Assembly: GCA_003646935.1 (NCBI GenBank)
Contig: QMLW01000108.1
Span: forward strand, 1 to 6,698
Length of the DNA stretch: 6,698 bases
Direction of reading: 5' to 3'
DNA from: Deltaproteobacteria bacterium
GTDB taxonomy: Bacteria > Desulfobacterota > DSM-4660 > Desulfatiglandales > B25-G16
Under the pieces are notes generated by a model. It had not been told where the DNA came from, ran no database searches, and saw only the letters and a program-made list of their open reading frames with translations. Below are positions 537 through 6,464 of the stretch, piece by piece. The position numbers and the translations under genes are program-made. How positions within the stretch are numbered: position 1 is the stretch's first letter; every line of letters starts with the position of its first letter.

Positions 537-1871
537 CTATTTGGGCTGCCATTTTTGCTTTCTCGGGATCAAATTGGCGGGAACAATAACCCCCTTGTTC
601 GCCTCTTTTTCCTTGTCCACCACGTCCTTGTCCAGCAGGAACAGAGACTCGTTTCCGTGACATGCGTTGCAGCTCGCATTCTGCGGCGTCTTCAGCTGGA
701 TATTATGAGGTGTAGACAGCTTCCAGGTAGGCAATGCATTAAATGACCTTAATGCTTTTTTTTCGTAAAAATCGAATAATTTTGGATCAACAGGGTTATG
801 CCGCACCGTGACGAATTTTTCAGGCCTCTTCTCCGATTGTATAGGATTGAGTCCGATCTTGAAATCAAACCATGAAGACTCTGTCTTGTAGAAGGCGAGT
901 CCCTGTTTGTCCTTTCCCACATGGCAGGTAGAGCAATTATTATACGGCTGGGAATGGCAGACATGACAACTTGCCTTATCCTTATGAATCCTATGTGTTA
1001 TTACATTCTTCGCCTCCTTGTCATAGATCTTCTCATGACAAGCTATGCATTTAGGCCCGTTTTCTACCTCGTAGCGGTTAGCGTATTCCTTTCCATCGCC
1101 GTGCATCTCTTCACCGGTATGGCACTTATCGCATTTCATGTATTTTTTCCTATGAATGCTTGGCAGGGTCCCCTCTTGCTCACCAAAATACTCTTTGTGA
1201 ACACGGCTCCCGTGACAAGCGGTACAAACCTCTTCCATAGGGGGTTTTCTTTGAAACAAATGACCGTCCAGAAATCCACCTTCTACCGAATCTGGCCTGC
1301 TGATATGACACTGTCCGCAGCTGCTGTGGCATTGAAAACAGTGGTTATTCATAGCGCCAGCTACCTTCTTGCTAATGATTGCCTCGGGATTTGCCCTTTT
1401 TTCGATAATTAGCCTATAGGGCCTGAGGCTTACATGAAGACTCTTTTGATAATGCTCATTGATCTCATCGTGGCAATCCCCACAGGCCGTGGTTGCATCG
1501 GGATAGGTGGGATCCTTAACAACCCCCTTGTGTGCGGTCTTCCAGTTAGGGTCATCAGGATTACCGCCGTGGCATTCGTGGCAGGCAAGCTCGCCGTGGT
1601 TTTCATCGTCTAGAATCTCGCTGTCAACGAAGATCTTCTCGTGCGGAGCCAACGGCTCCACAGCGCCGCCTCACCCCTCACCTTCTATTTCTGAAGACTT
1701 CAGTGCCGGCCTCATTTTGGCAATCTCCCGGGTTGCCTCAATCAATTTCTTGGCGCTGGTATGGCATTGAAAGCACTGGGTATCTTCGTAGGCCTGGCTC
1801 GTAAGAGGTGCGCTTGGGATAAGGAAAAGACTGAAGACTATAGCAATGCTAATCAGTCGCGCATAGTTCAT
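537..1871 (-). CDS. Selenocysteine-containing 11-heme c-type cytochrome (in-frame UGA at codon 67)
   Basis: Read as one gene of 444 residues from ATG 1871 (ribosome binding site AGGGGG at 1884-1879, 7-nt spacing) to TAG 539-537. Residues 1-27 are a signal peptide ending near SQA, so the protein acts in the periplasm. Heme motif 1 (CFQCH) starts at residue 33. A UGA follows at codon 67 in the context G-E-G-(UGA)-G-G-A-V. The same frame then stays open for 377 codons with ten more CXXCH motifs, starting at about 97, 130, 178, 185, 216, 247, 275, 302, 313 and 401. Motifs 4 and 5 are packed as CFQCHSSCGQCH. All 22 cysteines lie in heme motifs. A hairpin with bacterial SECIS geometry follows the UGA. 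If split, the downstream part would start at GTG 1661 without a signal peptide, and its hemes could not be attached in the cytoplasm, which argues for readthrough. Likely role: periplasmic electron transfer or oxyanion reduction, substrate unknown. A nonsense mutation or sequencing error remains possible. Confidence 0.8.
1642..1662 (-). promoter_or_regulatory. Candidate bacterial SECIS hairpin downstream of the UGA
   Basis: On the mRNA, arm UGUGGAGCC (1662-1654) pairs with GGCUCCGCA (1650-1642) over nine base pairs, eight Watson-Crick and one G-U, closing a GUU loop (1653-1651). The loop begins 17 nt after the UGA. Known bacterial selenocysteine insertion elements lie inside the coding sequence just 3' of the UGA and present a G (often GU) at the start of a small apical loop to SelB. 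Spacing, stem length and loop all agree with that pattern. There is no bulged U as in the E. coli fdhF element, and folding energy was not computed. Confidence 0.65.
1671..1673 (-). other. In-frame UGA, predicted selenocysteine codon
   Basis: The TGA sits between GGG and GGC codons in the cytochrome frame. It separates the exported, heme-1-bearing N-terminus from the ten-heme remainder without any shift of frame. Elsewhere in the window TGA ends genes normally (4334-4336 and 6462-6464) and Trp is written TGG, so a genome-wide UGA-to-Trp code is unlikely. The glycine-flanked position lies about 30 residues after heme motif 1 and 30 before heme motif 2. Confidence 0.7.
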
Positions 1872-2333: not shown

Positions 2334-3530
2334 CTAGGTATAGCTCTTAAAGAGCTCCCTTGAGATAATCATCTTCTGAATGCTCGAAGTTCCCTCCAGA
2401 TACTCCATACCCCTCGCGTCCGCACTGAATATCCCGATGATATTGTCCTTGAAGTAGCTCCTGCCGCCCATGATCATCAGCCCCAATTGAGCCACCGACA
2501 TCACCATCTGCGTAGCAAAAAGCTTGGCCTGAGATGAGGCACTCCTGTAGTACGGGGTGTGTGCCTGTTTCAGGGCATAGAAGCACAAGCCCCGTGCCGC
2601 GTTGATCTGGGTATACATATCGGCCATCTTAAAGGCGATGTCCTGGCTGCTGGTAAGGGGTCGATCGAATTGAACCCTCTTGCGGGAGTAAGCGAAGAGC
2701 TCATCCAAGATTCGACAGGCAAGGCCGCAGGAGATGCCAGCAAGCAATATCCGCCCCCTGTCTATTGCATCAAGGGCCAGGAGCAAGCCCCTGCCCTCAT
2801 CACCCACGAGATTCTCCCTCGGAACCATACAATCCTTGTAGATGAGCCTCCCCGTCGGAAGGAGCTTCAGCCCGTCCTTTTCAGGCAACAGTACCACCCT
2901 GAATCCCTCTATACTACCGTCAACGGCAAAGACGCTCAGCGACCTGGCCGCTCTCCTGCCCTTTGTATTCACCAGGATTGTGTAAATGTCGGCGAGACCT
3001 GCATTGGAGATGAAGATCTTCTCCCCGTTAAACACATAGTGATCCCCGACGGGCCTGGCGGTGAATTCAATAGCGCTTGCATCGGTACCGGCCTTTTCCT
3101 CGGTCATGGCAATAGCGCCGAACTCCCCCTCCCGTAATCTGGAGAGGAACCGCTCCTTCTGCGACTCGTCCTCTCCTGCGAGGATGAGGTCCACAGCACG
3201 ACTATGAGCAACGAATATAATTCCCATGCTCGGGCAGGTGTAGCCCAACAGCTCCATGATAAAATAGATGTTCTCCTCGCTCGTCTTGGTCCCCCCGTAC
3301 TCGACGGGAATAAACCGTTCAAAGAACCCGATTTCCCGCAAACCAGAATAGATAGGCCCCCACGAAGAGGGGAAGACCACCTTGTTGTTCTGCAACATGA
3401 GCCCGTGCTCGTACATGCCCGGCACATTGCACATTACCTTATCCCTGAGAAGTTGAGTAAAACTCTCGGTGAAGGTAGAATCCTCTTCGCCCTCGCTAAA
3501 TGAGCGAAGTATCATGATCAGGTTATCCAC
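2334..3530 (-). CDS. Acyl-CoA dehydrogenase family flavoprotein
   Basis: 398 residues, a typical length for the family. These cytoplasmic FAD enzymes form the alpha,beta double bond of an acyl-CoA and pass electrons to ETF. The N-terminal helical domain contains IPVEYGG (74-80). The middle beta domain contains AMTEEKAGTDAS (141-152) and NGEKIFISNAG (168-178), the usual flavin- and substrate-contacting segments. The C-terminal domain contains GRILLAGISCGLA (259-271), YSRKRVQFDRPL (281-292) and KMADMY. Glu379 in YLEGTSSIQ aligns with the catalytic base of medium- and short-chain enzymes. The start is GTG 3530 with GAAGGG upstream; ATG at codon 6 is an alternative. Conservation of the core motifs suggests an active enzyme. 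The acyl substrate cannot be read from sequence alone. It is divergent from a thioesterase, and no ETF genes are in the window. Confidence 0.93.
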   Translation of the reverse strand: MDNLIMILRSFSEGEEDSTFTESFTQLLRDKVMCNVPGMYEHGLMLQNNKVVFPSSWGPIYSGLREIGFFERFIPVEYGGTKTSEENIYFIMELLGYTCPSMGIIFVAHSRAVDLILAGEDESQKERFLSRLREGEFGAIAMTEEKAGTDASAIEFTARPVGDHYVFNGEKIFISNAGLADIYTILVNTKGRRAARSLSVFAVDGSIEGFRVVLLPEKDGLKLLPTGRLIYKDCMVPRENLVGDEGRGLLLALDAIDRGRILLAGISCGLACRILDELFAYSRKRVQFDRPLTSSQDIAFKMADMYTQINAARGLCFYALKQAHTPYYRSASSQAKLFATQMVMSVAQLGLMIMGGRSYFKDNIIGIFSADARGMEYLEGTSSIQKMIISRELFKSYT

Positions 3531-3889: not shown

Positions 3890-4336
3890 GTGCGTACTTC
3901 GCTTTCCCGAGAGAGGCTTGAGTTTCTAGCAAAGGATTATCGTCGTGGATTCATCAAGCATTGCGGCTTGGAGGCCGTGCGCGTAAAGAGGGGCTTGTTC
4001 GAATCACGCGTTCTGATCGGAGAAAACCATAGAACGCAAGACAACTTTATTCACGCCGGGCTTATGGCTACCATGGCAGACCACACCGCCGGTTACGCAG
4101 CCTTTACGGTGGTTTCCGAGGAGTTCCGAATACTGACGATTGAGTTTAAGATCAATTTCCTAAAACCCGCTTTCGGCAATGCGCTGCGCTGTCGTTCCAG
4201 GGTAATGAGCCAAGGCAAACAGATCATCGTGGCCGAATCCAAGGTCTATGATGTAAGAGAAGACCGCGAAACACAGGCGGCTGCGGCGCTCGTCACCCTC
4301 ATGGCAGTACCAGCGGAGAAGTTAGCCGTTGCGTGA
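3890..4336 (+). CDS. PaaI-type hot-dog fold acyl-CoA thioesterase
   Basis: 148 residues, the normal size for a single hot-dog domain. The signature segment is QDNFIHAGLMATMADHTAGYAA (about 50-71) around the central helix. It matches the family pattern H-x-G-x(4)-hydrophobic-A-D with His55, Gly57 and the likely catalytic Asp64. The following strands include TIEFKINFLKPA, equivalent to the usual strand after the helix in PaaI proteins. The expected reaction is hydrolysis of a cytoplasmic acyl- or aryl-CoA thioester. The GTG start at 3890 is chosen because AGAGGTG lies about six bases before it. It is divergent from the acyl-CoA dehydrogenase, which supports a shared acyl-CoA role, and convergent with the zinc-ribbon gene 16 bases after its TGA. 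The substrate is not predictable. Confidence 0.88.
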   Translation: MRTSLSRERLEFLAKDYRRGFIKHCGLEAVRVKRGLFESRVLIGENHRTQDNFIHAGLMATMADHTAGYAAFTVVSEEFRILTIEFKINFLKPAFGNALRCRSRVMSQGKQIIVAESKVYDVREDRETQAAAALVTLMAVPAEKLAVA

Positions 4337-5439: not shown

Positions 5440-5838
5440 ATGGGTGAGAGGAAAATCCGTATTCTCCTTGGGAAACTCGGAGAGGGCCATAAAGAGGCCC
5501 AGCTAGCCTTGGCGAGGAGCTTCAGTGAAGCGGGGTTCGAGGTGATCTACACGGAACTGCAGGAACCGGAAGCGATCATCCGATCGGCCCTGCAGGAATC
5601 AGTGGATCATATCGGCATTACCGTGCTGCCAGGGGCAGACATTCAGGCATTTGGGGAAATACAAAGACTCCTTAAACAGGAGGACAGCGCTTATATTACC
5701 GTAACAGCCGGCGGGATTCTGGATGAGGCCGACATCGCCTCTCTAAGGGATATGGGAGTTATGAAGGTCTTCGAAAAAGGCACCTCATTCGAGGAGCTCA
5801 TTGCGTGGTCCAAGAAATGCATTACCCCAAAGACGTAG
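5440..5838 (+). CDS. Stand-alone cobalamin-binding domain protein, methylmalonyl-CoA mutase C-terminal type
   Basis: 132 residues, the size of one Rossmann-like B12 domain. It resembles the small, B12-binding part of methylmalonyl-CoA mutase: RILLGKLGEGHKEAQ (7-21), AGFEVIYTEL (31-40), VDHIGITVLPGAD (55-67), TVTAGGILDEADI (87-99) and GVMKVFEKGTS (106-116). In the classical DxHxxG motif the histidine is the lower cobalt ligand. Here the motif reads E-G-H-K-E-A: His17 is kept, but Asp becomes Glu and the last Gly becomes Ala. The Gly-Gly (91-92) near the nucleotide tail is kept. Cobalamin binding is therefore plausible but unproved. The start is fixed by AGGGGGG 8 bases before ATG 5440. No mutase catalytic subunit is in the window; the partner could be encoded elsewhere, or the domain could be a sensor. 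Confidence 0.85.
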   Translation: MGERKIRILLGKLGEGHKEAQLALARSFSEAGFEVIYTELQEPEAIIRSALQESVDHIGITVLPGADIQAFGEIQRLLKQEDSAYITVTAGGILDEADIASLRDMGVMKVFEKGTSFEELIAWSKKCITPKT

Positions 5839-5960
5839 GGATCCATCAAATCCATGCTGCCTCTCATATCTCCTGCTATCCGGATAGGCCCTGTGAGATT
5901 TCCCTCCAGAACATACGCCAGTAAGCAATGGAGCTTGCATTTGAGAACCCAGGAAACAGC

Positions 5961-6464
5961 ATGAAAAGGGATTTTCTCACCTGCTCTCAGTGTGGAAAGC
6001 GGGTTGAAGTCAGCCGCGTCATTCCCATTGATGGGAGGCCGGTCTGTAGTACCTGCCTGTATGGAGTCGCAGCGCCATTGAAGGTGTACCCGATCGGCGT
6101 GGTACGAACAACGCTCCGGGAAGAGGAGAAGGAGGGGCTCGGCCACACAGGCCTCCAGGAGATCTCCTGCATCGATCTGCTCCCCACCCAGAGACGATTC
6201 ATGTATAAGCTAGAGGAAGAGGAGTTCCTCACTATCGTGTATTACCTCCACAAGGTAGCATCCGTGAAATCGATCTTTCGCAGGCGCCTCGATGGAAAAG
6301 AGGTGGGGGTCTTCGCCTCGCGCACACCCCATAGGCCCTCCAAGATCGCCATCCAGGATGTTCGGTTGATTACCATTAGAGAAACAACACTCTACGTCTC
6401 AGGGCTCGATGCCATCGAGGGGAGCCCTGTGCTCGATATTAAATTGAGATTGAGAAATCCTTGA
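5961..6464 (+). CDS. Zinc-ribbon plus TrmO-like (TsaA/UPF0066) domain protein
   Basis: 167 residues from ATG 5961, chosen because AGGA lies six bases before it; the in-frame ATG 5928 lacks a ribosome binding site. Residues 8-32 form a zinc ribbon (C8, C11, C29, C32). From about 42 a TrmO-type beta-barrel domain follows: YPIGVVRT (43-50), GVFASRTPHRPSKIAIQDVRLI (116-137) and GLDAIEGSPVLDIK (148-161). TrmO proteins are SAM-dependent methyltransferases acting on N6-threonylcarbamoyladenosine 37 of tRNA. The usual signature RPNPIGLS reads RPSKIAIQ here, and the DIKPY end reads DIKLRLRNP, so the canonical activity is doubtful. The fold assignment is good, the function uncertain. It lies downstream of the B12 domain gene in the same orientation after 122 bases. 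Confidence 0.8.
   Translation: MKRDFLTCSQCGKRVEVSRVIPIDGRPVCSTCLYGVAAPLKVYPIGVVRTTLREEEKEGLGHTGLQEISCIDLLPTQRRFMYKLEEEEFLTIVYYLHKVASVKSIFRRRLDGKEVGVFASRTPHRPSKIAIQDVRLITIRETTLYVSGLDAIEGSPVLDIKLRLRNP

Follow-up and report, generated by a model that had tools for sequence, protein, structure and literature searches.

A predicted selenocysteine within an eleven-heme cytochrome c encoded beside a rhodanese

When a UGA codon interrupts the reading frame of a multiheme cytochrome, does it mark the border between two genes, or is it read as selenocysteine (Sec) within one protein? This question is raised by a 6,698-base contig (G000:C108), the whole of which was analyzed and is referred to here as the window. 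The UGA, at codon 67, is almost certainly a Sec codon, as predicted from the sequence; the wider account, in which a single eleven-heme cytochrome with Sec67 is decoded by way of a downstream hairpin and likely works with a rhodanese in periplasmic sulfur chemistry, is probably correct. The features on which we rely are collected in Table 1.

Table 1. Location of the cytochrome gene, its parts, and its neighbors in the window.
Feature	Position	Strand	Remark
Whole gene, 444-residue 11-heme c-type cytochrome, predicted Sec67	537..1871	-	ATG 1871-1869, TAG 539-537
In-frame UGA, codon 67, predicted Sec codon	1671..1673	-	TGA in 50/51 loci covering the codon
SECIS-type hairpin, 8 bp stem, GUU loop 1651-1653	1643..1661	-	loop G at +18 from UGA
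Heme motif 1 (CFQCH), ahead of the UGA	1761..1775	-	C33, C36, H37 invariant
Likely signal peptide, residues 1-27	1791..1871	-	judged by eye
Residues 123-312, aligned with octaheme tetrathionate reductase homologues (hemes 3-9)	936..1505	-	
Rhodanese gene downstream, cut by contig end, loop CKSGGRA	375-1	-	Pfam PF00581, 7.3e-19
Acyl-CoA dehydrogenase	2334-3530	-	unrelated neighbor
4HBT thioesterase	3890-4336	+	unrelated neighbor
B12-binding domain protein	5440-5838	+	unrelated neighbor
TrmO_N protein	5928-6464	+	unrelated neighbor

The 1871-537 frame is interrupted at TGA67 only. ORF 1, with 66 codons, holds a hydrophobic N-terminus and the CFQCH motif; past the TGA come the codons GGC GGC GCT and then the GTG that starts ORF 2, which is 374 residues long counted from that GTG and contains ten CxxCH motifs. 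The first-pass annotation had described an 11-heme cytochrome interrupted by an in-frame UGA, with its signal peptide and first heme in one ORF and ten hemes in another of about 374 codons in the same frame; rereading on the minus strand found its coordinates and counts to be correct and confirmed the two ORFs, with the signal peptide recognized by eye. Cytochrome_C7, Cytochrom_c3_2, and Cytochrome_C554 are the cytochrome Pfam matches. Across 45 aligned sequences the Cys and His columns of the 11 CxxCH motifs are all invariant, and the last heme motif takes the form CxxxCH in L072 and L076. The product is likely an exported multiheme c-type cytochrome, export being judged by eye. Eight further His residues outside the motifs are invariant (H92, H114, H146, H204, H240, H257, H293, and H389), and H296 is kept at 96%; the eleven hemes outnumber these residues, so that a heme could have a different ligand, although the count is no proof of this. 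Upstream, the neighbor clusters that include the acyl-CoA dehydrogenase and the 4HBT protein recur in 8 and 7 loci, respectively, the window included.

The codon itself was read in 61 fetched loci from relatives across the phylum, which amount to 52 distinct sequences. TGA stands at the equivalent position in 50 of the 51 distinct loci that cover it, down to 31-33% identity; the exception, L069 (genome G410), has TAC (Tyr), and L068, the remaining member of the 52, has a sequence from which the site region is absent. A gap in L058 shifts the local alignment beside its TGA. Most loci have GEG-U-(G/A)G around the site; a single distant clade has VAG-U-GV. In L004 (identical to L023), alone among the 50, TGC comes after the UGA, giving a vicinal Sec-Cys pair, GEG-U-C-G. 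Three genome searches, which overlap in genomes and in which the codon was read only where the locus was fetched, agree with this picture: all 19 strong matches of one search (own genome included) contain a single TGA, its 12 weak local matches (E of 5.7e-11 or more) contain none, and all 23 matches of a second at E 1e-60 or better again contain one. In the third, TGA is present in 50 of 52 places, three of them also with TAA. The remaining two are in G085, whose match lies at a contig end and begins at residue 154, and in G410, which has no stop.

The protein database carries the mark of the same codon. Of the best 120 of 989 homologues, 118 are 337-379 residues long; 103 of these begin at the ORF 2 start codon and 15 at it or a few codons later, a common start that is expected if the stop codon is shared. 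The two full-length members of that 120 are P0003, with Trp67, and P0004, with Cys67, the one cluster with Cys at the site found by word-based searches, which can miss distant homologues. Together they make up a single clade that branches from within the Sec forms (support 100/100), and we read them as losses of Sec; the Trp of P0003 and the Tyr of L069 imply that the protein tolerates other residues at the site. The named records among the relatives are mostly titled Deltaproteobacteria, Desulfobacterales, or Desulfobacteraceae. The expectation in the first-pass annotation that homologues would again have UGA, or Cys, in a conserved context was borne out, mostly as G-E-G-U-(G/A)-G with Cys in one homologue; unrelated residues, which it had taken to speak against Sec, are largely absent but do exist in P0003 and L069.

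In bacteria, SECIS elements fall within a distance range of 16-37 nt from the UGA. Here the sequence 3' of the UGA reads GGCGGCGCU, then GUGGAGCC-GUU-GGCUCCGC, with the stem starting 9 nt past the UGA. The fold energy of this hairpin taken alone is unexceptional (z -1.18; 27 of 200 shuffles as good), and it is comparison across relatives, not folding energy alone, that singles it out. In a 45-nt piece, the minimum-energy hairpin has its loop at 17-21 nt in 45 of the 50 TGA loci; L007, L026, L061, L063, and L066 fold otherwise. For covariation we used the 37 sequences (36 distinct) with the loop at +18, leaving out L005, L024, and L058 (loop at +21), ten distant-clade loci, and L068 and L069. 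Pair cells are paired in 95.5% of cases against a shuffled mean of 83.5, cells changed on both sides number 27 against 7.9, and the covariation score is 0.362 against 0.179—none of 500 shuffles reached any of these values. Slid versions of the stem are at most 48.6% paired. Two further counts differ weakly from shuffling: pairs with both-sided change (4 versus 2.8; 84/500 as high) and further pair types (10 versus 7.8; 18/500 as high).

The changes can be followed in the stem, where AGCC/GGCU becomes CUCC/GGAG in other clades and the encoded residues differ too; in the ten distant-clade loci the hairpin differs in sequence, and its loop lies at 17-21 nt. The loop codons are CCG-TTG in 37 of 37 sequences, whereas in the rest of these genes the two codons account for 24% and 19% of their respective families. 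This constancy is not absolute, as the truncated database proteins P0025 and P0027 have Gln for Pro at the loop position. The Cys form P0004 has Gln in place of the loop-encoding Leu (VEPQAP), so its loop cannot match that of the Sec forms, and the Trp form P0003 keeps the Leu. An Rfam scan of the window returned nothing at the gathering threshold. The bacterial SECIS rule, as given in the available text of PMC1088965, asks for a stem-loop directly past the UGA with a small apical loop containing G; the window agrees in the G of its GUU loop and in its compensatory changes. That the UGA is instead a true stop, leaving two separate proteins, a pseudogene, or a sequencing error, is scarcely credible: gene callers do list what follows the UGA as a separate protein, and one homologue has Trp at the site, but the TGA recurs in distinct loci from many assemblies, the frame is open on both sides, with heme 1 and a signal peptide (by eye) encoded upstream of it and ten hemes downstream, and the hairpin has changed in a compensatory manner.

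The genome holds most of the machinery needed to decode Sec. A tRNA-Sec lies in G000:C259 (73.8 bits); the model for it also matches ordinary tRNAs at lower scores, so the anticodon was checked by ARAGORN, which gave UCA. SelA scores 600.7 bits and SelD 394 bits, the latter with an in-frame TGA of its own in the context GAG-U-ACK. The first-pass annotation had pointed to the sel genes as a check, and on this point the outcome is mixed: selA, selD, and tRNA-Sec are present, but selB was not found in an assembly that is 73.88% complete, where SelB has weak matches only (best 40 bits versus a cut-off of 242). SelB exceeds that cut-off in 49 of 61 genomes searched (own included). Among the 19 genomes that matched the family strongly, 15 are above it; the four that are not are G000 (74% complete), G007 (80%), G012 (88%), and G018 (94%), all of which have a tRNA-Sec of at least 69.9 bits. 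Because 355 of the 395 genomes sampled from the phylum have selA, its occurrence in 44 of 48 family genomes is uninformative. The gene was not found at E 1e-70 in G001, G152, G232, and G294, of which G152 and G232 are about 98% complete.

Could the UGA be read as Trp or another standard residue, through a change of code or a programmed read-through free of selenium? P0003, with Trp at the site, is what such a reading would lead one to look for; however, two other genes of the window, those of the 4HBT and TrmO_N proteins, end in TGA, which means that UGA functions as a stop in this genome. The same genome has a tRNA-Sec(UCA), selA, and a UGA-containing selD, and the covarying hairpin lies at a bacterial-SECIS distance from the UGA. 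We regard this reading as very improbable. The proposal that one Sec-containing protein explains both ORFs is, in turn, strongly supported by the recurrent UGA, the covarying hairpin, and the presence of selA, selD, and tRNA-Sec.

What such a protein might do is suggested by its neighbor. A same-strand rhodanese frame lies downstream in 47 of 52 loci, the open frame beginning 0-451 nt past the cytochrome. In two further loci the cytochrome is fused to rhodanese domains—L069 (252-2387), with two Pfam stretches, and L068 (2-1717), by reading. L002 has only 164 nt downstream, without a rhodanese, and none was seen in about 2 kb downstream of L006 and L012. A rhodanese profile built from the cytochrome family's own rhodaneses had no match among 31 cytochrome loci taken as controls, of which 11 were weak relatives and 20 octaheme tetrathionate reductases. 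Among neighbor clusters the rhodanese is the commonest, present in 42 loci against 14 for the next. The rhodanese of the window is likely exported, again judged by eye. A distant clade (L071, L073, L074, and L075) has CNTAQ[LF]A in its downstream rhodanese frame and, about 1 kb further on, another frame that resembles a rhodanese.

Our proposed sequence of events begins with SelB, which would read the hairpin and insert Sec at UGA67, as established selenoprotein biology leads one to expect. The protein would then be exported and eleven hemes c attached, as its motifs suggest. The rhodanese might take sulfane sulfur from thiosulfate or polysulfide and pass its persulfide sulfur to the Sec67 selenolate, forming an Se-S intermediate; electrons from the hemes could reduce this intermediate and release sulfide, making the system a thiosulfate or sulfane-sulfur reductase. 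Alternatively, it could run in the reverse direction, as sulfide oxidation. The proposed sulfur chemistry is drawn entirely from the rhodanese linkage, and a joint role of rhodanese, Sec67, and hemes in it is offered tentatively. Equally tentative is the broadest form of the idea: a phylum-wide, nearly all-Sec family in which Sec, fed by a dedicated rhodanese and wired to an eleven-heme chain, may serve as a periplasmic sulfane-sulfur or thiosulfate oxidoreductase.

A different function is possible, if on the unlikely side: Sec may be real in a cytochrome that transfers electrons or reduces selenite, tellurite, or other metals and metalloids, with the rhodanese handling selenium or sulfur traffic instead of the cytochrome's substrate. 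The precedent is the ext cluster of Geobacter, in which, according to the portions of PMC5877670 available, the predicted Sec cytochrome ExtKL is accompanied by ExtH, a rhodanese-like protein, and reduction of both selenite and tellurite is impaired when ExtI is lost. Several family members also weakly match two Ext cytochrome models, at best 42.4 bits for ExtN (NF040967; cut-off 200) and 45.8 bits for ExtM (NF040943; cut-off 800); the best-scoring stretches start at residue 88 or later, with heme 1 and Sec outside. Against this reading stand the matches to the ExtKL model listed in 27 family genomes, none of which is on the contig of the family locus, as well as the first rank of the rhodanese among neighbors and its fusion to the cytochrome in two loci.

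The first-pass annotation had called a Sec-bearing multiheme cytochrome an unusual combination. The kind has in fact already been predicted in print, as ExtKL and as an octaheme TIGR04315 entry (PMC5877670, PMC6148476, and PMC13188914, each in the parts available), the latter being GenBank-annotated according to the accessible text of PMC13188914; the 11-heme family is what we did not find described in the literature searched, which includes the available portions of PMC13188914, PMC9312934, and PMC12013277. The words 'selenocysteine' and 'selenoprotein' are absent from the part of the cable-bacteria paper PMC13047784 that was available. In excerpts, a 2022 review (PMC9312934) includes a 'cytochrome c family protein', WP_013164579.1, and a 2026 review (PMC13188914) gives a different accession in its line 'ExtKL (cytochrome c family protein)'. 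From that line, and from an ExtKL homologue that also matches PF13435, we take WP_013164579.1 to be ExtKL, although a link to the 11-heme family is possible. Published selenoprotein screens required Cys homologues (PMC1088965), a limit that deep-Sep states (PMC12013277), as far as the available texts go; the family may have stayed unlisted owing to its few Cys homologues.

If our reading is true, this is a widespread selenoprotein family whose genes are split at the UGA by gene callers and which tends to drop out of screens for Cys/Sec pairs. No fewer than 118 protein clusters in the database seem to have been cut off at this codon and would have to be corrected. One periplasmic protein would then combine the redox chemistry of selenium and heme, and would be a candidate for redox conversion of sulfane sulfur outside the cytoplasm. 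Cytochromes resembling octaheme tetrathionate reductase (OTR) would also use Sec at two different places.

How the family stands to known systems can be seen from the two Sec cytochromes already in print. ExtKL (NF040886) is likewise a periplasmic multiheme cytochrome with one in-frame UGA and a rhodanese gene in its cluster, as described in the available parts of PMC5877670 and PMC6148476. In contrast to the 11-heme family, where the UGA falls between hemes 1 and 2, ExtKL has five hemes, and its UGA, read in L082 within the context DGUPS, lies beyond the last of their motifs. Membership in ExtKL was rejected, as only one of the 27 family genomes searched, G033, exceeds the cut-off of 250 bits, and does so at another locus; it has an ExtKL gene and a family gene on separate contigs. 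Upstream of the G033 ExtKL homologue, at L082:162-713, lies an exported-looking frame that is rhodanese-like by eye, and both Sec cytochrome families may therefore share this kind of partner.

The core of the 11-heme family resembles OTR (TIGR04315; PDB 1sp3) in sequence. Membership was again rejected: the cut-off of 375 bits was not reached, P0001 was not listed at E<=10, and of seven family members set against the model only L067 was listed, at 37.8 bits. A PDB search with the family profile returned weak partial matches only (best E 8.8e-06, cytochrome c552), and a PDB sequence search with L067 alone returned no match. OTR has eight hemes, whereas the family has eleven. The 20 OTR homologues that we read have Cys or Sec in N[NS][FY][C/U] just ahead of heme 2; in the family the stretch aligned to this motif is without either, and its Sec sits in an N-terminal part added relative to OTR. 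Eleven of the 20, octaheme proteins from the phylum of the window, have TGA at that place (L092, L095, L098, L099, L101, L103-L107, and L109) and the other 9 have Cys—a clean Sec/Cys pair at what we take to be the active-site Cys64 of OTR. Unlike the family, the OTR loci had no rhodanese match in their flanks (0 of 20, up to about 1.5 kb each side). By these comparisons of sequence, the 11-heme family is apart from both ExtKL and TIGR04315, with Sec in another place, a near-constant rhodanese, and few Cys homologues seen.
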